Shown piece by piece: positions 14,548 through 45,444 of a DNA stretch of 48,238 nucleotides. The stretch spans positions 1 through 48,238 of the forward strand of contig CADAMI010000003.1 in NCBI GenBank assembly GCA_902788975.1, in the 5' to 3' direction. The notes beneath the pieces were generated by a model. The model was given only the letters and a program-made list of their open reading frames with translations, did no database searches and had not been told where the DNA came from. The stretch's first letter is position 1. Every line of letters begins with the position of its first letter. A program made the translations under genes and the position numbers. Origin of the DNA: an uncultured Erysipelotrichaceae bacterium. GTDB taxonomy: Bacteria; Bacillota_I; Bacilli_A; RF39; UBA660.

Positions 14548-15375
14548 ATGAGTAACGTAGAGGAATTTAAAGAAATAGTTTTTGATAATATTAAACATAT
14601 CAACAAAGAAGGAAAAGAATTTTGGTGTGCAAGAGAACTAATGGTCGCTTTAGAATATAAAAGATGGGATAAGTTTAATGATGTAATAGAAAATGCAAAA
14701 ATAGCATGTCAAAACAGCAAGAATTTGACAAATGACCATTTTTCCCATGTGGGAAAAATGGTTGATATTGGCTCAAACACAAAAAGAAAAATTAGTGATT
14801 ATAAATTATCTCGTTACGCTTGTTATTTAATAGTTCAAAATGCAAATCCAAGAAAGAAATCGGTTGCTTTAGGTCAAACATATTTTGCTATTCAAACAAG
14901 ACGTCAAGAATTAAGTGAAAGAGAATATAGTTCATTATCAGAAGATGAAAAAAGATTTTACCAAAGAGATTTAACTAAGAAAGGTAATTATTCATTAAAT
15001 AAGACTGCTGCATCAGCTGGTGTAAAAAATTTTGATCAGTTTCATAATTCGGGATATAAAGGATTATATGGTGGAGAGACAGCTAATGATATAGCTAAAA
15101 GAAAAGGTTTAAGATATCGAGAAGATATACTTGATAATATGTGTAGTGATGAATTAATTGCTAATTTATTTAGAATCTCGCAAACGGAACAAAAATTAAA
15201 AAAAGAAAATATAAAAAATGAAAAAGATGCCAATAACACTCATTACGAAGTAGGTAGTAAAATCAGAAAAACAATTAAAGAACTAGGCGGAACTATGCCA
15301 GAAGATTTTTCGACTCCTGAAAAAAGTTTAAAACAATTAGAAAAAGAAACAAAACTTTTAAACGAAAAAAAATAA
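14548..15375 (+). CDS. dinD: DNA damage-inducible protein D
   Basis: A 275-residue cytosolic protein. It opens with a BRO-N-like domain (EFWCARELMVALEYKRWDKF, then NDHFSHVGKMVDIGS), continues with LSRYACYLIVQNANPRKKSV and ALGQTYFAIQTRRQEL, and ends in a DinD-type helical tail. This full pattern is DinD, an SOS-linked protein that in E. coli inhibits RecA filament function. The start at ATG 14548 follows GAAGGAGG. It stands alone between unrelated genes, often a sign of transfer. Regulation is probably through the inverted repeats upstream. Confidence 0.9.
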   Translation: MSNVEEFKEIVFDNIKHINKEGKEFWCARELMVALEYKRWDKFNDVIENAKIACQNSKNLTNDHFSHVGKMVDIGSNTKRKISDYKLSRYACYLIVQNANPRKKSVALGQTYFAIQTRRQELSEREYSSLSEDEKRFYQRDLTKKGNYSLNKTAASAGVKNFDQFHNSGYKGLYGGETANDIAKRKGLRYREDILDNMCSDELIANLFRISQTEQKLKKENIKNEKDANNTHYEVGSKIRKTIKELGGTMPEDFSTPEKSLKQLEKETKLLNEKK

Positions 15376-17138: not shown

Positions 17139-19220
17139 ATGTCAAAAAAAATAATAGTCATCCAAGATGGAATTAAAGAGTGTGGCAGTGCCTGTCTATT
17201 ATCGATTATTAGATATTATGGTGGTAATGTTCCTATGCAAGAATTATTAAGACTAACTAATACAACCAAAGATGGAACCACTTTTTATGACATAAAAGAA
17301 GCAGCTTATGAAATAGGCCTTTCAGTAAAAGGATACAAAGTAGAAAATGCTAGCAAACTCTACGAACTAACAAAGCCATTTATTAGTCAAGTAATCATTA
17401 ATAATTATCTTCATTTTATAGTTGTCTATAAAATAGATAATGATAATGTTACTATTATGGATCCAGCTAAAGGAATGGTCAAAATGTCCCTAACTGAATA
17501 CCTAAATATATATACTGGTAATATTCTTCTATTTGAGCCCTTCAAAGAATTACCTAAGTATAATGAATCCAATTATTTAAAAAGTGTTATTAAATCAGTT
17601 ATAAATAGTAATAAATATTTAATTATAAATTTAATAATTTTAACTATAATTACTACTATCTTTACTTGTCTATATAGTTGTTATTTAAAAATAATTATCG
17701 ATAACTATCTATCTCAAAGTACTTTTAAAATATTAATTATATCAATTATCTTTATAATTATTTATTTAATAAAAGTAATTAGCGAATACTTCCGTAATAA
17801 TCTTTTAATATATCTAAATAAAAAGATAGATTTAACGATCATTACTTCCATCATAAGAAAAATAATCTTACTTCCTTATAGTTATTATAAGAATAAAACA
17901 ACTGGTGAAATGATTTCTCGTATTAATGATCTTTTATATCTAAAAAATATTATTACTAAAGTAATAACTACAATCTTTTTAGATTTTTTCTTATCATTAA
18001 CAATTATTATTATTTTATTTAAGATAAATACATCTATGACATTTATGTTATTTATAATAACTATTATCTATTATTTAATATTTATTTCATACAAGAAAAT
18101 AATCGAAAAATATACTGAAAAAATTCAGATTAGTAGTGCTTTAACTAACTCACTTTTAACTGAATCTATCAGTAGTTATGAAACAATTAAAGGATTATCT
18201 CTTGAAGAATCCTTCATTAAAAAAATAAATAAAAAATACGAAACAACAATTAGCAATAATTTATTATTAAATAAAAATATTAATCTAGAAAATCTTTTAA
18301 AAAGCTTATTCGAGGGAATTATTATAATTTTTATTCTATATCGAGGATTTACATCAGTTATAAATAATACTCTTTCTTTAGGAAGTCTAATTACTTATAA
18401 TACCTTAATATTATATTTTTTAACCCCCATTAAAAACATTTTAGATTTTTATAAAGAATTTTATTATATTAAAAATAGTTTAATCAGAGTTAATAATTTA
18501 ATAAATTATAAATATGAAAGTTTAGACACAAAACAAAATCTTATTATTCATGGTAGTATCCACATAACTAATCTTAATTATAGTTATAATAAGCATTATT
18601 CTGTTTTAAACAATCTTACGCTAGATATCGAAGAAGGGAGTAGAGTATTAATTTTAGGTTCTAGTGGTAGTGGTAAATCAACTATATTAAAGTTATTATA
18701 TCGATACTACGACATTAAGAATAATAGTATATTTATTAATGATAAAGATCTATTAAATTATAACATAGCTGATCTTAGAAATAATATAACTTATGTTTCC
18801 CAGAATGAATATCTATATACCGACACTATAAAAAACAATATTATTTTAGATAGAAATATTCCAGAAAGCAAGTTTATTATGATCTGTAAATTACTCTATA
18901 TAGATGATTTTGTTAAGGACAAGCCCTTATCATATAATTTTTTAGTCGAAGAAAATGGTGCTAATTTATCAGGAGGTGAACGACAACGAATTATCTTAGC
19001 CCGATCATTTTTAAAAGAAAGTAATTACCTTTTTATTGATGAAGGATTAAATGAAATTGATATTAATTTAGAAAGAAAAATACTTAAAAATATTTTTCTC
19101 TATTATCGTAATAAAACCATAATTATTATTTCTCACCGGACCGATAATATGGATTTATTTGATAATGTTATCTATTTAGAGAGAGGATTTATTACTAAAA
19201 ATATTAAAAGGAGGAATTAA
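17139..19220 (+). CDS. C39-peptidase ABC exporter for double-glycine peptides
   Basis: A 693-residue exporter that would cut double-glycine leaders and pump the product out. The C39 peptidase comes first: oxyanion Gln9, catalytic Cys15 in IKECGSAC, His92 in YLHFIVVY and Asp108 in IMDPAKG. Six membrane helices follow (about 160-420). The ATPase has Walker A GSSGSGKS near residue 507, signature LSGGERQRI near 609, Walker B LFIDEG and H-loop IIISHRTD. The start follows GAGGAGG. Its stop overlaps the ATG of the first peptide gene, so exporter and cargo are cotranslated. ComA/LanT-type families share this build; no lanthionine-forming enzyme is nearby. Confidence 0.93.
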   Translation: MSKKIIVIQDGIKECGSACLLSIIRYYGGNVPMQELLRLTNTTKDGTTFYDIKEAAYEIGLSVKGYKVENASKLYELTKPFISQVIINNYLHFIVVYKIDNDNVTIMDPAKGMVKMSLTEYLNIYTGNILLFEPFKELPKYNESNYLKSVIKSVINSNKYLIINLIILTIITTIFTCLYSCYLKIIIDNYLSQSTFKILIISIIFIIIYLIKVISEYFRNNLLIYLNKKIDLTIITSIIRKIILLPYSYYKNKTTGEMISRINDLLYLKNIITKVITTIFLDFFLSLTIIIILFKINTSMTFMLFIITIIYYLIFISYKKIIEKYTEKIQISSALTNSLLTESISSYETIKGLSLEESFIKKINKKYETTISNNLLLNKNINLENLLKSLFEGIIIIFILYRGFTSVINNTLSLGSLITYNTLILYFLTPIKNILDFYKEFYYIKNSLIRVNNLINYKYESLDTKQNLIIHGSIHITNLNYSYNKHYSVLNNLTLDIEEGSRVLILGSSGSGKSTILKLLYRYYDIKNNSIFINDKDLLNYNIADLRNNITYVSQNEYLYTDTIKNNIILDRNIPESKFIMICKLLYIDDFVKDKPLSYNFLVEENGANLSGGERQRIILARSFLKESNYLFIDEGLNEIDINLERKILKNIFLYYRNKTIIIISHRTDNMDLFDNVIYLERGFITKNIKRRN

Positions 19221-19354
19221 TGGAATTAACAAATCAAGAAATGTTAAAAATTAACGGTGGCTCTTGGTATGTCATCGCAGGAATTGGGGCTGCCTTAACC
19301 TATATAATAGGTATTCTTAGTGGCTTTACTAATCCAAGTCGTTGCAATAATTAG
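19220..19354 (+). CDS. Double-glycine leader peptide A (candidate class II bacteriocin)
   Basis: A 44-residue gene too short for ordinary ORF calling. The ATG overlaps the stop of the exporter gene (TAATG) and follows AAAGGAGG. The leader MELTNQEMLKINGG is a textbook double-glycine leader; cutting after Gly14 leaves a 30-residue peptide beginning SWYVIAGIGAALTY. The mature part is strongly hydrophobic, contains GILSG (a GxxxG motif) and ends PSRCNN with a single Cys. This fits one half of a class IIb two-peptide bacteriocin, but a signalling peptide is possible. Confidence 0.85.
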   Translation: MELTNQEMLKINGGSWYVIAGIGAALTYIIGILSGFTNPSRCNN

Positions 19355-19366
19355 AAAGGAGGATAT

Positions 19367-19540
19367 ATGCAAGTAAGAGAACTTAATGAAAAAGAAATGT
19401 TAAAAATAAATGGCGGAGCCTTGACGTCTTCATTTATAAATGCCATTAACAGTGTTATAAACACCTTATTTGAATTAGGTAAAGAAACCGGCAGCACCTT
19501 AAGACGATTAATACAAGGTAATTATTGTCCTATGAACTAA
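19367..19540 (+). CDS. Double-glycine leader peptide B (candidate partner peptide)
   Basis: A 57-residue gene starting 12 bases after peptide A, with its own AAAGGAGG. The leader ends in EKEMLKINGG; cutting after Gly17 leaves 40 residues starting ALTSSFINAINS. The mature part is an amphipathic helix, contains GKETG (GxxxG) followed by Arg-Arg, and ends NYCPMN with a single Cys. The leaders of A and B share EMLKINGG while the mature parts differ, as expected for two cargoes of one exporter. Confidence 0.85.
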   Translation: MQVRELNEKEMLKINGGALTSSFINAINSVINTLFELGKETGSTLRRLIQGNYCPMN

Positions 19541-19543
19541 AAA

Positions 19544-19575
19544 ATAGAAGTGTAGATTAATATCTACACTTCTAT
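19544..19575 (+). terminator. Perfect 14-bp hairpin after the peptide genes
   Basis: ATAGAAGTGTAGAT pairs perfectly with ATCTACACTTCTAT across a TAAT loop. No T run follows, so it may protect or process the mRNA, or only partly end it, between the peptide genes and the lipoprotein gene. Confidence 0.6.
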
Positions 19576-19617: not shown

Positions 19618-20232
19618 ATGAAAAAAATAATTATAACTAGTTTTCTTATTATTTGTTTAACTGCCTGTCATAAAACACCTAAAGAACAAGTGTTTGAAAC
19701 AAAAATAGAAAACAATAATGCGGTTATTAAAACTGATAAAGATTTGCCAAAAGAAGAATTATCGGAAAATAATGAAGAAGATAATTCAATAAATAAAGAA
19801 ATAAAAGAAGAAAACCACCCTGAAAAAGAAGAAATAACAATCGATAAACCTAAACCAATTATTGAACTACCAACTATTCCTATTATTGAAGAACAAATTG
19901 ATTCAGTAGATGAAGAAAGTCTTGACTATTCGATTCATAAAGGAAGAATTGATTGTCAGGATGAAGCATCGTGTATGGATAAATCAATTCCCATCCAATT
20001 TAAGTATAAACAATCAATTTCTAACGTTTTTTATCTTGAAGTAATCTCTAAAAAAGATAATATTTTAGGTTATTTTATCGAATATAACTTCAAAGAACAT
20101 AAATATCAAAATAATGAAGAATGTCTTTTAATTGGCAAAGATATTAAAGATGCCTTACCAGATAGAGTAGTTAGTTATGAATGCTCAGCTGATGGTATCT
20201 TAAAAATAAATACTGATTATGGAAAGGAGTAA
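19618..20232 (+). CDS. Lipoprotein between the peptide genes and the adhesin
   Basis: A 204-residue protein with a lipoprotein signal (IICLTAC, lipid-carrying Cys17), so it is anchored to the outside of the membrane. Residues ~20-95 are a very acidic, Lys/Glu/Pro spacer. The C-terminal ~100 residues hold paired Cys (DCQDEASC and ECLLIG with YECSAD) and may form a small disulfide-bonded beta domain. It starts after AAAGGAGG. It could be an immunity protein for the peptides or a partner of the adhesin; the sequence does not decide. Confidence 0.75.
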   Translation: MKKIIITSFLIICLTACHKTPKEQVFETKIENNNAVIKTDKDLPKEELSENNEEDNSINKEIKEENHPEKEEITIDKPKPIIELPTIPIIEEQIDSVDEESLDYSIHKGRIDCQDEASCMDKSIPIQFKYKQSISNVFYLEVISKKDNILGYFIEYNFKEHKYQNNEECLLIGKDIKDALPDRVVSYECSADGILKINTDYGKE

Positions 20233-20233
20233 T

Positions 20234-22354
20234 ATGTTAAAGAAAATAATAATAATTATAACAACTATTTTATTAATGATAAATTGTGTATATGCAGATA
20301 TTAATGATAGCAAACTAGTAAAAAATAGATATGATAATATTTATGCTGTCTATGATGCTCCGGATAGAGTTCATTTATATTATGCTCAGAAATATACCCT
20401 AAATGATATAACAGCTTACTGTATTGAACCAGGTCTTGGTATTGATACTGATACCTATTCTTCGACAACCGATTGGTCACTTACTAACTTAGATAGCGAT
20501 ACGATTAATGCTATTCGTTTGATTGCTTATTATGGCTATGATTATCCTGAACATAATACAATGAAATATTATCTAGCCACTCAAGAATTAATATGGCGAA
20601 AAATTGCTAATCGTGACGTTTACTGGATTGAAGGAACCGATAAAGATGGTCCAAGAATTAACATTGATAATGAAAAAAACACCATTATTGAATTGGTTAA
20701 TGAACATACCAAAGTTCCATCTTTTGATAACAAAACAATCAATTTATCATTAGGTGAAAATAAAATTATCGAAGACACTAACTATGTCTTAAATAATTAT
20801 GAAATATATTCATCTGATATAAGTGATGTTAAAATTGATGATAATAAACTTGTTATAAATATAACTAAACCAAAGAAAAATGCTGAAGTAAGATTAATAA
20901 AAAAGAATTATACCACTAAAGTAGCCTTAATCTATTATAGTGGTAATAATCAAAAACTAATTCGTTCCGGAATTCTAGATCCTGTTATTGCTTCATCTAA
21001 AGTAAATATTACTATGCGTTCAAAAATAAAAGTAATAAAGATTGATGAAGTATCTAAAAATACGGTTAAAAGAAAAGGCATAAAATTTCAAATAAAAAAT
21101 ATGGATACTAACGAATATATCTGTAATAATTATGAATGTACTTATGAAACAGAATCTGATGGTACTTTTACAACTGATTACTTAGAACAAGGAAATTATC
21201 AATTAGAAGAAGTAAAGCAAGCTGAACTATATGGGTATTACTGGAATAAACAACCATTAAGTTTTTCAATTAACGAAAACTCAGATATAAAATATGAAAA
21301 TAATGAACCAATAATTGAATTAAAATTTGCTAATCGCCAATTAACAGGTGGTTTTAGTTTTAAGAAAGTAGGGGAAAATCCAATCTTTAACGATGGTAAA
21401 ATAATCTATGAAGATGTTCTTCTAGATGGAGTAGTCTTTAAATTATATGCCAACGATGATATCTATTCAGCTGATGGTACGCTAATATACCACAATAAAG
21501 AAATAATTAAAGAAATAACAACTGAAAATGGTACTTATTCACAGTATGGAATGTATTTAGGTAAATATTGTTTGGAAGAAATATCATCTGTTAAGAATCA
21601 TATTGTAAATTCAAACCCTCGTTGCTTTGAACTAAATTATAAAGACAGTTTTCATGACAATTATGTTACTTGGTTTCAATTAAATAACTATCTTCCCAAA
21701 GGTAATTTTGAATTAACTAAATTAAATATCTCGACTCAAGGCCCAATTAAAGATGTCAAATTTGCTATTTATACCGAAGATAATAAATTGTTCTATTCTG
21801 GCATTACCGATGAAGAAGGCCATATTTATTTACCAAATATTCCAGTAGGTAAATATTATTACAAAGAATATGCAGCTCCGAAAGGTTATGCCATAAATAC
21901 AGAAAAAATGTTTTTTGAAATAAAAGAAAATGGTGAAACCGTAAAATCAACCGTTACTAATAAATATATAACTGGTACTTTTATATTTACCAAAACTGAT
22001 TATTCAACTAATGCCCCCCTTTCTAATACCCTAATCGAAATATATAATGAAGATAATGAACTCTTATATTCAGAACGAACCAATGAAGAAGGAAAAATAG
22101 TAATCAACAATTTACCATATGGTAAATATTACTATAAAGAGATTGAAGCCCCAGAGGGTTATATGCTTAATCCAGAAACTATATCTTTTGAAATCAAAGA
22201 AGATAATGAAATTGTAAATGCTAATATGACTAATGAAAAAATACCTGTTCCCATTACCGGCTTAAATGAAAACTATCTTGTCTATGGAGTATGTGCATTT
22301 TCGATTATTCTAGGAGCTATATCAATAATTTATGATCATCAAAAGAAAAAATAA
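20234..22354 (+). CDS. Sortase-anchored adhesin with thioester and Cna-B domains
   Basis: A 706-residue surface protein. After a signal peptide (1-21) comes a thioester domain: Cys63 in AYCIEPG and Gln117 in LATQELIW are the pair that form the internal Cys-Gln thioester used to bind host amines. Cna-B/SpaA-type beta domains follow (from about 275, 375, 490 and 580), with the GKYYYKE(Y/I)xAPxGY repeat twice. The end has VPITG, a hydrophobic stretch and KKK, a class of LPxTG-like sorting signal. Start ATG 20234 after GGAAAGGAG. It overlaps the sortase gene by 23 bases. Confidence 0.9.
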   Translation: MLKKIIIIITTILLMINCVYADINDSKLVKNRYDNIYAVYDAPDRVHLYYAQKYTLNDITAYCIEPGLGIDTDTYSSTTDWSLTNLDSDTINAIRLIAYYGYDYPEHNTMKYYLATQELIWRKIANRDVYWIEGTDKDGPRINIDNEKNTIIELVNEHTKVPSFDNKTINLSLGENKIIEDTNYVLNNYEIYSSDISDVKIDDNKLVINITKPKKNAEVRLIKKNYTTKVALIYYSGNNQKLIRSGILDPVIASSKVNITMRSKIKVIKIDEVSKNTVKRKGIKFQIKNMDTNEYICNNYECTYETESDGTFTTDYLEQGNYQLEEVKQAELYGYYWNKQPLSFSINENSDIKYENNEPIIELKFANRQLTGGFSFKKVGENPIFNDGKIIYEDVLLDGVVFKLYANDDIYSADGTLIYHNKEIIKEITTENGTYSQYGMYLGKYCLEEISSVKNHIVNSNPRCFELNYKDSFHDNYVTWFQLNNYLPKGNFELTKLNISTQGPIKDVKFAIYTEDNKLFYSGITDEEGHIYLPNIPVGKYYYKEYAAPKGYAINTEKMFFEIKENGETVKSTVTNKYITGTFIFTKTDYSTNAPLSNTLIEIYNEDNELLYSERTNEEGKIVINNLPYGKYYYKEIEAPEGYMLNPETISFEIKEDNEIVNANMTNEKIPVPITGLNENYLVYGVCAFSIILGAISIIYDHQKKK

Positions 22355-22949
22355 ATTATTTATAATCAAACTATTAGGTATCATCCTAATAATAATTCCC
22401 ATTTCATTTCTGTTATCTAAAAAAATATATCATATAAAGAATGTTAATCAAAGTAAGCAGGAAATATCTAAATATATTGAAGAAACATCTATTAATAATG
22501 AAATAGAAGAAATAAATGAAGATAATCATCCAGAATTATTACATTATATTGCTGTATTAGAAATACCTGATATATTTTTGAAAAAAGGTTTATTAGATAT
22601 TAATGATAAATATAATAATGTTGCCTATAATATTGAAGTATTATCTCAAAGTAAAATGCCCGATATTATTAATTCTAATCTTATATTAGCTAGTCATAAT
22701 GGAAATAGTAATGTCTCTTATTTTAAAGATTTATCAAAATTAACGAAAGGTTCTTTAATTTATATCTATTACCAAGGAACTAAATACATTTATAAATTAA
22801 ACAATTCTTATGAAATAAAAAAGAATGGGGAAGCTAATATAATTAGAGATAGAACTGTAAATACCCTTACGCTAATTACTTGTAAAGATAATAGTGATAC
22901 GGAACAAGTTATTTATATTGCCTATCTTATATCTAAAGAAACATATTGA
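22332..22949 (+). CDS. Sortase family transpeptidase
   Basis: A 205-residue enzyme: N-terminal membrane helix (about 9-29), then the sortase barrel with His122 in LILASHNG and Cys184 in TLTLITC. It links sorting-signal proteins to the wall or to each other, and overlapping the adhesin gene makes that protein the obvious substrate. The conserved Arg that normally follows the Cys by about eight residues is Gln192 here (TEQVIYIA), and no nearby Arg fills the place. Size and lack of a second C-terminal helix suggest a class D-like form. The ATG lies inside the adhesin gene, so translation is probably coupled. Confidence 0.88.
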   Translation: MIIKRKNKLFIIKLLGIILIIIPISFLLSKKIYHIKNVNQSKQEISKYIEETSINNEIEEINEDNHPELLHYIAVLEIPDIFLKKGLLDINDKYNNVAYNIEVLSQSKMPDIINSNLILASHNGNSNVSYFKDLSKLTKGSLIYIYYQGTKYIYKLNNSYEIKKNGEANIIRDRTVNTLTLITCKDNSDTEQVIYIAYLISKETY

Positions 22950-22974: not shown

Positions 22975-23004
22975 TATATTAATAGATAGGGAGTGGGGAT
23001 AGGT

Positions 23005-24429
23005 ATGCAAGAAAGAAAAAGTTTTATTTTAAATACCCTTAATTTAATATGGTTCATAATTCTATACTATATCATTGGCAACAAGAGTATCTTTCTTTAT
23101 GTCTTATCCTTAAGTTTATATAATATTTTTGAGTCATGCTTTAATCATATAAGTATTAAAGAATCATTAAAAAAAATAATAACAACTAAATCAAAAGAAA
23201 AAATATTTAAATATCTCTTATTAATTATAACTGTTATATCATTTTCATTTATATTACTTAGTATCTTAATAAGTGATCTTACTAGCGTTTTTCTAAAAAT
23301 AAATAATATATTACCTATATTTATCCTTATGGGTATAACTATTATAAATAAACCATTAATAAGACTATTAACGGAATACTTAGAAAATATAAAAAGCAAT
23401 CATAAATATTCAACACTAATTACTATCTATAAAATAATTGAAAAAATACTTTTATTAATATTTGCTTTATTTTCTTTTAGAATATTTAAACTAAATATTA
23501 TTTCATCAATATCACTAATGTATTTTTCTAAAATAGTGAGTATAATTCTTATAATCTATTTAATTTATAAAACAAGAAATATTGGAAAGGATAATTATAC
23601 CCTTGGTGAAGATAAAATTAATTATAAAAAAGAGATAAAAAAAATACTTACAAATAATAGTCATAAAAGTATGATTGAAATTATAAAAAATAGTTATTAT
23701 TATATATCGATTATAGTCTTATATATAATCTTAAGTACAAGATATCACTATCAAATAGATGAAATTGAAAAGATAATAACTTTTATCTATTTCTATGCTT
23801 TTGGTATAATTAATTATTTAATTTATCTAGCTAAATCAGTAACTAAAAGATTGCCTAAAGATGCTTTAGTAACCGATAAATTATATCAGAGTTTTAAAAT
23901 GATGCTGACGATAGCTATCATCTTTGGCATGATTTCACCACTGACTTGTAAAGTAATATTTAATGATTCAAGTAAATCAATCTATCTAACAATGATTAAT
24001 TTTTTAGCTATCTTTATCATGTTATATGATACAACATATGAAAACATAAAGAATAAAAAAATGATATATATAAGTTTATTTATTGGTCTAATTATAAAGA
24101 TAATCCTAATAGTTCCACTAATAAATTCCTTTTATCGTATGGGATATAGTCTAATATATGGTGATATTCTTAGTACTGCCATGGGTATGTTCATATCGAT
24201 AATAATCAATTATATTTATTTACGAAATATTAATAAAAAGAATGATAATTATTTTGAAAAAATATTAAATATCTTATATGAAAATATTATTTTAACAATA
24301 ATCTTAATTATTGTTCAGTTTATTATCCCCATGGATACGAATAATTATTTTAAATCATTAAGTTTAATAATAATCTATTTAATTATAAGTATAGCATTTA
24401 TCAAAATAAAGAATAAAAAGCGAGGTTAA
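23005..24429 (+). CDS. Polytopic membrane protein, flippase-like
   Basis: About 474 residues and 12-14 predicted membrane helices, very Ile/Leu-rich, with few charged loops. Arrangement and length fit the polysaccharide flippase (MATE/MVF) group, but no motif is decisive. The start could be ATG 23005 (GGGGATAGG upstream) or GTG 22993; I prefer 23005. It ends four bases before the pyrophosphatase gene. A role in envelope glycan export is only a guess. Confidence 0.65.
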   Translation: MQERKSFILNTLNLIWFIILYYIIGNKSIFLYVLSLSLYNIFESCFNHISIKESLKKIITTKSKEKIFKYLLLIITVISFSFILLSILISDLTSVFLKINNILPIFILMGITIINKPLIRLLTEYLENIKSNHKYSTLITIYKIIEKILLLIFALFSFRIFKLNIISSISLMYFSKIVSIILIIYLIYKTRNIGKDNYTLGEDKINYKKEIKKILTNNSHKSMIEIIKNSYYYISIIVLYIILSTRYHYQIDEIEKIITFIYFYAFGIINYLIYLAKSVTKRLPKDALVTDKLYQSFKMMLTIAIIFGMISPLTCKVIFNDSSKSIYLTMINFLAIFIMLYDTTYENIKNKKMIYISLFIGLIIKIILIVPLINSFYRMGYSLIYGDILSTAMGMFISIIINYIYLRNINKKNDNYFEKILNILYENIILTIILIIVQFIIPMDTNNYFKSLSLIIIYLIISIAFIKIKNKKRG

Positions 24430-31038: not shown

Positions 31039-31055
31039 TATACTAGGTGAAGGAT

Positions 31056-32750
31056 ATGATAAAGATTAATAAAAGAGGGTTTACTTTAGTTGAATTATTA
31101 GCTGTAATCGTAGTTCTTGGTATAGTTGCTTCAATTAGTATTTATGCAATCACAAATACAATAAGAAAAACTAAAGAAAAAAGCTATCAGGTAACAATAA
31201 ATGAAATAGAAAATATGGCTAATGATTATTTGTTAGAGAATAATGGTAAATTATTTTTTATAAGTAGTAATGATGGAAGTGAGACCGAATATCAGTGTGT
31301 TACAATAAAACAATTAATAGATGCAGGTTATTTTAAAACTGATATAACTGAATCATTGGTAGATGTGGATACGAATGTCAATATAAATGATTTTGTAAAA
31401 ATTACGAGAAATCAAAATTCAAAAGTCATCAGTGATATTGCTTATATTAAAAATGATGATAGTAATGATTTAGATAAATGCAGATCAGCATTTAATTCTA
31501 ATGCTAACATTAGGTTTGAAATTGAACCAAATGAGTGGAGTAAAGAAAAGACAGTTAAGATATCATATACATTAATTAGTAACACTGATTCAGAAGATTA
31601 TGTGTATGGATATAGTTATGATGATACTGATTATTTTGATAATAGCCCAAATAAAGAATTTTTAATAGATAAAAATGTTTTAATAAAGGCATATATTAAA
31701 AATGGCAACAATGTTGTTAAAAATAGTTCATATTTAGTTAAAAGTATTGATAATACAAAACCCACAATTAATTACAGCTTGAATGCTGGTGAATACAACA
31801 CTAAAAAGGATGTAAAGATTACAACAATTGATAATGAAAGTGGCTTTGATTATATGAATATTAAAGTATATAAAGATGATGCTTTAGTAACTGATGAAAG
31901 CAATTTAAGTGGTAGTACTCATACGATTAATTTAGATTCTAGTGGTGAATGGAGAATTTATACTGAAGCCTTTGATAAACTTGGTAATAAAAATACTAAA
32001 GAAGCTAATTATTCAATAATAACTAAGATTACTGAAAATGATTTCAATTATACTGGACAATTGCAATTCATTAGTGAGGATGATAATAATTGGTATGTTA
32101 AGTTTTTATCTAGTGGGACATTAACACTTAGTAAAAGTATGGAAGTTGAAGTATTCTTAGTTGGCGGCGGTGGCGGCGGCGGAAGTGGATACTACGATGG
32201 TTATGCCGGAACCTATGGCGGCGGTGGCGGTGGCGGCGGCTATATAGCAACCGGAACTGTTACAATTAGTTCTGATACCAATTATGAAATTTTAGTTGGC
32301 ACTGGCGGTGCTGCAAACACCAATGGTGGTGATACAACGGCATTTGGTCTTACTGCTAATGGTGGAAATAAAGCAAATAGCAAAAATGGTGGCGCAGGTA
32401 CTGGCGCTGGTGGTACTGGAATAAATGATAATAGGTTGCCAGGCGCATCAAATAAAAAGGCTAATCCTGGAGGTAATGGTCAAGCTGCTTTTGGAAATAC
32501 TAGTTATTATTATGGCGCCGGTGGCGGCGCTGGTGCTGGCGCTTCGAAAGATAATGCTTTTGGTGAAGGTGGCTCTGGTGGAGCCAATGGTGGTGGCGCT
32601 GGTGGCGGACCTTGGGGCGGCGTAGGTGGCGACGGCGTTGCTAATTCTGGAGGCGGTGGCGGTGGCGGCGGAGCCATCTCTGGCAAATCTGGAACTGCGT
32701 CTGGTGGTAATGGCGGCTCAGGAATTGTAATAATCCGCAATGTAAGATAA
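31056..32750 (+). CDS. Prepilin-type N-terminus joined to a glycine-rich C-terminal domain
   Basis: A 564-residue protein. It begins with a type IV prepilin leader and helix (KRGFTLVELLAVIVVLGIVA), to be cut between Gly and Phe and methylated by a prepilin peptidase. Residues ~45-160 resemble a pseudopilin body; ~165-330 form beta-rich Ig-like repeats (NTKPTINYS, then FDKLGNKNTKE). The last ~190 residues are extremely glycine-rich (runs of up to eight Gly, GGNGGSGIVIIR at the end), the kind of domain seen in phage tail fibres and surface proteins. That part uses GGC/GGT codons and is far more GC-rich than its surroundings, suggesting separate origin. No other pilus-assembly gene is in the window. 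Confidence 0.85.
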   Translation: MIKINKRGFTLVELLAVIVVLGIVASISIYAITNTIRKTKEKSYQVTINEIENMANDYLLENNGKLFFISSNDGSETEYQCVTIKQLIDAGYFKTDITESLVDVDTNVNINDFVKITRNQNSKVISDIAYIKNDDSNDLDKCRSAFNSNANIRFEIEPNEWSKEKTVKISYTLISNTDSEDYVYGYSYDDTDYFDNSPNKEFLIDKNVLIKAYIKNGNNVVKNSSYLVKSIDNTKPTINYSLNAGEYNTKKDVKITTIDNESGFDYMNIKVYKDDALVTDESNLSGSTHTINLDSSGEWRIYTEAFDKLGNKNTKEANYSIITKITENDFNYTGQLQFISEDDNNWYVKFLSSGTLTLSKSMEVEVFLVGGGGGGGSGYYDGYAGTYGGGGGGGGYIATGTVTISSDTNYEILVGTGGAANTNGGDTTAFGLTANGGNKANSKNGGAGTGAGGTGINDNRLPGASNKKANPGGNGQAAFGNTSYYYGAGGGAGAGASKDNAFGEGGSGGANGGGAGGGPWGGVGGDGVANSGGGGGGGGAISGKSGTASGGNGGSGIVIIRNVR

Positions 32751-44217: not shown

Positions 44218-45444
44218 ATGAATAAAATTATTAATAAACTATGGATATTTATTTTGTTGCTTTTTCCTGTTAATGTCCATGCAATAACAGGAGGTTTAAA
44301 TATTTCTTGCAGTCCAAGCACAGTTAGAGCTAGTGGCACAGTTACATGTACAATTACTGGGACTTCTGATGAAATAGTAAGTGCAGTCGAGGCCCAAGTT
44401 ACAATGCTAACAGATAAAGCAACAATTGCTTCATTTACAAAGAATGATGCTTGGACAACAGGTAGTCTTGACGATAATAAATATTTTAATGTTAGCGTTG
44501 AAAATTCAACCATAAAAGATAGTTTTACCATTGGTACATTGACTTTAAATATAAGTGAAAATGCTAACGAAACTAATGATATTAGAGTAAATATTCAAAA
44601 TGTAAGTTTTACTGATGCTAATGATAATAAAGTAAGTGAAGGATTATCTGGAGGTTCTGCTACTTTTAGTATTGAAGGTAAATCTGAACCACAGGATACT
44701 CTTAAAGGACTTAAATCGTTAGATATCATCAATGGCGTTTTATCTCCATCTTTTAGTTCTTCATTTACTGGAGGAAGAGTTGATTTAAATGCTGATACAA
44801 CAACGTTCGGTATTTCTGCAGTTGCTAATAATCCGGATGATAATATTGCGTGTAAAAATGTAGATGATGCTAATAGTGTTTTGACTTGCAATAATATAGA
44901 ATTTAAAACAACTGGTGGTAAAGAAAGCATGGCTATTCATATTGAGGTCGGTGAGGGAGAAAGTTTAGTTTCTTATAGTTTAATTGTTATTAAGAATGTC
45001 CCTGATACAATTGCCAATCCTGAACTTACCTCCCTTACTATTGGTGGGAAAACTGTTGAATTGCAATCTGGTAAGTATGATGGCTATGTTGTTGAGTTAG
45101 AAAATGTAAACAGTTATGAAGTTTCATGGACTTTAAAAGATGACGATAATTATCAAGTCGTAAATTTATCTAATCCTACTATAAGAACGGCAGAAGGAGA
45201 ATTTATAATTCAAATCGAACCTAAGGATAAAACGGCCGGGCTTAAGTCTGAAAATTATTATATAAAAGTAGTTAAGGCTGGTGGTAATCCAACTGAACAA
45301 CCAACTCAATCTCCAAAACCAGTAACACCAGGTAATAATCCTCAAACAGGAGGCACAAGTGCAGCTATTATGGCATTGATTTTGTTTTTATCACTTGGAG
45401 CAAGCATATATTTTTATCAAAGAAATATGAGTAGTTATAATTAA
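44218..45444 (+). CDS. Sortase-anchored surface protein with NPQTG signal
   Basis: A 408-residue exported protein: signal peptide (1-22, ending VHA), a cohesin-like beta sandwich (about 25-150; NISCSPSTVRASGTVTCTIT), cadherin-like beta domains to ~360, a Pro/Gln/Thr stalk (TEQPTQSPKPVTPG) and a sorting signal NPQTG followed by a hydrophobic stretch and a short tail. NPQTG resembles the sortase B motif NPQTN as well as LPxTG forms. No sortase gene is next to it; the only one in the window is at 22.3 kb. ATG 44218 follows AAGGTGGG. Confidence 0.85.
   Translation: MNKIINKLWIFILLLFPVNVHAITGGLNISCSPSTVRASGTVTCTITGTSDEIVSAVEAQVTMLTDKATIASFTKNDAWTTGSLDDNKYFNVSVENSTIKDSFTIGTLTLNISENANETNDIRVNIQNVSFTDANDNKVSEGLSGGSATFSIEGKSEPQDTLKGLKSLDIINGVLSPSFSSSFTGGRVDLNADTTTFGISAVANNPDDNIACKNVDDANSVLTCNNIEFKTTGGKESMAIHIEVGEGESLVSYSLIVIKNVPDTIANPELTSLTIGGKTVELQSGKYDGYVVELENVNSYEVSWTLKDDDNYQVVNLSNPTIRTAEGEFIIQIEPKDKTAGLKSENYYIKVVKAGGNPTEQPTQSPKPVTPGNNPQTGGTSAAIMALILFLSLGASIYFYQRNMSSYN

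Follow-up and report, generated by a model that had tools for sequence, protein, structure and literature searches.

The locus described here occupies positions 17139-19540 of the window, by which we mean the whole stretch of 48,238 nucleotides that was analysed; the window is one entire contig of a genome of 1.23 Mb that is 70.6% complete. An exporter gene and two small peptide genes, pepA and pepB, lie there in one row on the plus strand (Table 1). The exporter reads from an ATG at 17139 to a TAA at 19218-19220, and one base is common to this stop codon and the pepA ATG at 19220. Each peptide gene has AGGAGG or GGAGG ahead of its start. The two leaders share the ending EMLKINGG, and the lone cysteine is the third residue from the end in pepA and the fourth in pepB. 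The original prediction had described an intact C39 exporter with a stop codon overlapping the pepA start, two genes of 44 and 57 residues each with a strong ribosome site, leaders with a common EMLKINGG ending, mature peptides of 30 and 40 residues with GILSG and GKETG, and a single cysteine near each C-terminus; the sequence, and for the exporter also its coordinates, Pfam matches and catalytic triad, agreed with this description throughout.

Table 1. Features of the exporter and peptide locus, in positions of the window.
Feature	Position	Strand	Basis
Peptidase-containing ABC exporter (C39 + ABC membrane + ATPase), 693 aa, C15/H92/D108 triad intact	17139..19220	+	Pfam, structure match, relatives
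pepA ribosome-binding region AAAAGGAGGAATTA, within exporter 3' end	19206..19219	+	sequence
pepA, 44-aa precursor: leader 1-14 (GG), mature 30 aa, hydrophobic helix with GILSG, Pro39, Cys42	19220..19354	+	
pepB ribosome-binding region AAAGGAGGATAT	19354..19366	+	sequence
pepB, 57-aa precursor: leader 1-17 (GG), mature 40 aa, helix with GKETG, Arg46-Arg47, Cys54	19367..19540	+	
14-bp perfect hairpin directly 3' of pepB	19544..19575	.	z = -5.8; T-run solely on minus strand

The hairpin behind pepB is the probable end of transcription, and the next gene, at 19618, encodes a lipoprotein. No accessory, modifying, kinase or immunity gene adjoins the pair in the window. The lipoprotein, a SpaA/thioester-domain surface protein and a sortase (19618-22949) stand between pepB and a gene for a 478-aa membrane protein (22993-24429). 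In two relatives (G002 and G006) a relative of this membrane protein is encoded directly 3' of pepB, and in G004 (L006) a lipoprotein and a similar surface-protein start also follow pepB. From this layout, a pilin-type cluster appears to have been inserted after pepB in the window. Elsewhere on the contig we noted the C-terminal part of a retron/group II-like reverse transcriptase with a YSDD motif near the contig start (379-837), a type IV prepilin-like N-terminus (GFTLVELLAV) joined to a C-terminal domain very rich in glycine (31047-32750), a secreted protein ending in a sortase-like signal (NPQTGG and a helix), possibly a substrate of the sortase at 22332 (44218-45444), and a gene at 14548-15375 which we take to encode a DinD-like DNA-damage-inducible protein.

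The exporter exceeded the Pfam cut-offs for all three of its domains (Peptidase_C39, 112 bits; ABC_membrane, 125; ABC_tran, 87.5). In a profile search against solved structures, the closest was the peptidase-containing ABC transporter (PCAT) 4ry2, with an E value of 5e-105, and ComA structures were also similar over the full length. The C39 Cys15 is kept in 49 of 49 readable relatives, and His92 and Asp108 in 64 of 64; the protein thus combines the fused C39 peptidase, membrane domain, ATPase and Cys-His-Asp triad that define a PCAT. It resembles PCAT1 and ComA in its full-length similarity and intact triad, but differs from them in belonging to a clade-specific orthologous group tied to one peptide pair, and full-length orthologues stand behind the pair throughout the family. 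The best NCBIfam match was TIGR01193 (bacteriocin_ABC) at 401.9 bits, which is below the cut-off of 523.85.

At 47 of 69 loci a further gene of about 140 aa, encoding one membrane helix and a soluble part, lies between the exporter and pepA; an accessory gene beside the exporter is also the usual layout in class II bacteriocins. No Pfam or PDB family claims the protein, which in our reading resembles a shortened HlyD-type accessory protein. In the window's genus, the gene is present in two near-complete genomes; it was detected neither in G004 nor anywhere in the window's genome, the latter being 70% complete. The earlier statement that no accessory protein is adjacent therefore holds for the window's genome and not for the system as a whole.

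Profile searches found pepB in 357 of 386 family genomes, in 241 of the 251 near-complete ones and in 144 of 150 genera, usually as a single copy, and pepA in 109 of 117 family genomes. Comparison of the two counts showed that pepB is present in each of the 109 genomes with pepA, and that six of the eight without pepA lack pepB as well; in the other two, the locus meets a contig end (G008) or holds a diverged A-like gene (G013, L028). Nearly all of the first 30 exporter loci read had both peptides directly downstream, and the order of exporter and pair was constant over more than 60 loci. Thus, pepA and pepB are adjacent in relatives and are lost only together. The sole clear break of adjacency that we saw is a 227-aa gene between pepA and pepB at L013 (4170-4853). 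In class and phylum samples outside the family, pepB matches were weak and mainly over the leader, and the pair was not found. One of the genomes with pepB is the MAG 'Bacilli bacterium RGIG3038' from goat rectum. This MAG, the genome size and the occurrence of small, mycoplasma-like genomes within the class suggest to us that the order is RF39.

In the exporter tree, nine of ten multi-member genera were monophyletic. The gene for ribosomal protein S21, often with yqeY, lies within 1.2 kb downstream at 25 of the 42 loci with enough flank; rsmD, ylbD and ylbE are found upstream in some relatives, and in the window's genus the locus adjoins murC. Exporter phylogeny and gene neighbourhood together indicate vertical inheritance at an ancestral site. 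A strain-specific or mobile bacteriocin was considered and rejected on the clade-wide vertical pattern and the presence of pepB in 0 of 72,556 plasmids; a phage collection gave matches solely to distant exporters, at less than 60% identity. The locus is a usually single-copy, vertically inherited core locus of the whole order, for which our sample comprised this one family only, and not a strain-level bacteriocin.

Several genera carry SpoIIIAH, GerM-like and GerE genes on the upstream side of the peptide locus (for example L087, 9923-11763, and L098, 2717-2947), and therefore sporulation-type genes exist in the order. Such genes are near the locus in six of the 32 loci with enough flank, which would suit signalling or cannibalism, with the pair acting on siblings at a developmental stage in the manner of CibAB/CibC fratricide or spore-linked cannibalism. 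CibAB of Streptococcus pneumoniae is a known double-glycine two-peptide killer with a small membrane immunity protein, CibC (PMC7595303). Cib, however, is competence-induced, whereas the system described here has a dedicated linked exporter and no competence link was seen. The sporulation neighbours are in the minority and may reflect plain synteny, and no kinase or regulator stands beside the locus; we thus consider an action on siblings at such a stage unlikely.

Conservation was assessed in alignments of 64 pepA and 67 pepB sequences. The leader GG is kept in 96-100% across both peptides, the glycines of GxxxG in 98/100% of pepA and 100/100% of pepB, the proline of pepA in 98% and the Arg-Arg of pepB in 92/97%. 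The C-terminal cysteine is present in 100% of intact copies of both, and 54 of 63 mature pepA and 61 of 65 mature pepB sequences have exactly one cysteine. Since dN/dS of related pairs was mostly 0.07-0.3 for both genes (two pepA pairs gave 0.6 and 0.43), well below 1, pepA and pepB are real genes under purifying selection, and chance is excluded by these values together with the number of genomes in which pepB was matched. Within a locus, the two leaders matched at 4.42 of 10 positions versus 3.21 for shuffled partners (p<=0.0002), as expected if a single exporter serves both. That the peptides form a pair served by the exporter, as had been proposed, is upheld by adjacency, joint loss, the kept GG and GxxxG, and this leader likeness; relatives retain both peptides with their GG site, and neither a lone peptide nor loss of the site, either of which was to speak against the pairing, was found. 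Neither pepA nor pepB had a significant match among solved structures in profile searches. A salt bridge between an aspartate of pepA and an arginine of pepB beside the GxxxG motifs was also tested and was unsupported by the alignments, in which neither D/R nor other clear covariation between the peptides was found.

These features bear on whether the products could be a pheromone pair sensed by a receptor elsewhere and devoid of membrane activity. PCATs do export peptide pheromones as well, such as CSP through ComAB (PMC7595303). However, both peptides are long and partly hydrophobic, each having an invariant GxxxG and cysteine, and no kinase gene stands beside the pair in the window or recurs next to it in the relatives read, which makes a pure pheromone role highly improbable.

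Comparison with known families points towards class IIb bacteriocins. pepA scored 24.0 bits against the NCBIfam model TIGR03949 (lactobin A/cerein 7B, class IIb), above its cut-off of 21.5, and 25 of 28 pepA relatives matched this model at E<=0.1. pepB exceeded no cut-off (13.6 bits for TIGR03949) and showed a weak match to lactococcin G-beta/TIGR03949. The system shares with class IIb (TIGR03949, lactococcin G family) an adjacent pair of different peptides with double-glycine leaders, a dedicated C39-type exporter and often an accessory gene. A GxxxG or GxxxG-like motif in both mature peptides is a class IIb feature (PMC8538875); here the motif is invariant in pepB and nearly so in pepA. In contrast to class IIb, the locus is core to a whole order, the mature part is strongly conserved, each peptide has one cysteine, pepB passes no cut-off, and the window's genus has no adjacent immunity gene. 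The original assignment as class IIb-like is retained in view of the pepA score, with the framing changed to that of a core locus. PMC8538875 and PMC6957408 describe dedicated membrane immunity proteins for class IIb systems. Beside the peptides no such gene was found in the window or its genus, and a candidate, gene C, is present at 37 of 63 family loci. Since the window lacks this element and the synergy of class IIb peptides at about 1:1 is, for this pair, a prediction, we do not claim full class IIb membership.

Gene C encodes 36-62 aa and mostly starts 6-22 bases before the pepB stop, overlapping it. Its product has a strong membrane helix followed by GxxxGT..R. A rule based on position, length and hydrophobicity alone matched 39 of the 63 loci, 37 of these with the motif. 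The two glycines are invariant and the arginine is nearly so; the cysteine is often missing. In a profile comparison gene C matched pepB with an E value of 1.4e-7 (94%) and pepA about not at all, and by this measure the C-terminus of gene C is homologous to pepB. The score of 34.3 compares with 12.2 for the best of 60 column shuffles and 14.2 for the reversed profile, which rules out an artefact of hydrophobic composition. Masking the GxxxG..R columns lowered the score to 17.7, and much of the signal is therefore the motif. Some gene C seeds had been found via the pepB profile; this selection bias was removed by using a position-only set and omitting these seeds, and the match stayed.

Gene C is absent from the window's genus. 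We considered that it had moved elsewhere, but it was not found in 17 of 18 near-complete genomes without it at the locus, and the one match was pepB itself. Many members are thus without a recognisable immunity gene, as is the case for about 40% of loci, the window included. We regard gene C, on its sequence, as a candidate immunity mimic. Modelling in PMC10100652 presents GIP, the immunity peptide of gallocin A, as mimicking the two bacteriocin peptides, and gallocin A (GllA1/GllA2/GIP) likewise comprises two double-glycine peptides and a third gene for a small toxin-like immunity peptide. The resemblance of GIP comes from a low-confidence structural model, whereas for gene C the homology to pepB comes from a profile comparison. 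Gallocin A peptides have two cysteines each, which form intramolecular bridges and matter (PMC10100652); with one cysteine per peptide, the pair described here falls outside that subclass. CbnZ of carnobacteriocin XY is a 42-aa immunity protein with one helix (PMC6957408, PMC8538875); it is a small protein with a single membrane helix, as is the gene C product, which differs in resembling pepB, a likeness to its own bacteriocin not being reported for CbnZ in the accessible part of PMC6957408.

Taken together, we favour, at a probability of roughly 55%, a core, vertically inherited, class IIb-like two-peptide system of an order of genome-reduced Bacilli that acts on membranes. Judging from its family, the leaders and adjacency, the C39 domain of the exporter would cut pepA and pepB after Gly-Gly and the exporter would release both. 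Outside, the mature peptides would act as one unit in a membrane, pepA providing a transmembrane helix and pepB an amphipathic cationic helix, packed via their GxxxG motifs. The invariant lone cysteine in both partners leads us to predict a covalent heterodimer, in which the C-terminal cysteines may lock the pair; with one cysteine per peptide, the disulfide could be intermolecular only. A search of 58 family genomes turned up no DsbA homologue, a point against the putative disulfide. In the literature we found no class IIb description of a covalent, cysteine-linked heterodimer and no paper tying RF39 to double-glycine peptides. The likeliest outcome would be that close relatives, or siblings lacking protection, suffer membrane damage or are inhibited, as for class IIb. 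At loci with gene C, the pepB-like, membrane-anchored helix of its product would shield the producer by pairing with pepA in the place of pepB, by analogy with the model for gallocin A GIP (PMC10100652).

Some of the same evidence counts against a bacteriocin. Bacteriocins usually vary between strains, and their genes are usually patchy and fast-changing. Here the pair is core and its mature part (2.56 bits per column) is more conserved than the leader (2.2), which is unlike an arms race. The pair could instead have a self-directed core function as a membrane or surface complex of the producer, such as a channel, surface anchor or envelope-assembly factor, with gene C as a third subunit or dock anchored in the membrane and not immunity. 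Such a role would fit the near-universal, usually single-copy and vertical presence over 150 genera, the strong purifying selection with the more conserved mature part, the position amid the housekeeping genes rpsU/yqeY/rsmD in many genera and the 40% or so of loci without an immunity candidate; however, class IIb bacteriocins have just this layout (PCAT, accessory gene, two double-glycine peptides, small overlapping membrane gene), and pepA passes a class IIb cut-off. Because of the strong conservation and the many loci without an immunity gene, a self-directed role keeps about a quarter of the probability. As a doubtful, more specific conjecture, a bacteriocin-like pair may have become, or always have been, a core function of the order, a cysteine-linked heterodimer acting on the producer's own envelope or population and not on competitors; in this view gene C, a pepB homologue retained in the membrane, would dock pepA.

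For two-peptide systems in general, the mechanism of immunity is called a mystery in PMC6957408, and gene C offers a direct test case, since this presumed mimic shares homology with pepB according to the profile comparison. It is unexpected that about 96% of the near-complete genomes in a large gut order contain the pair, which provides these uncultured bacteria with a secreted product that defines them. Its retention across the order suggests a basic role, with the two peptides probably acting as a pair on cell membranes.
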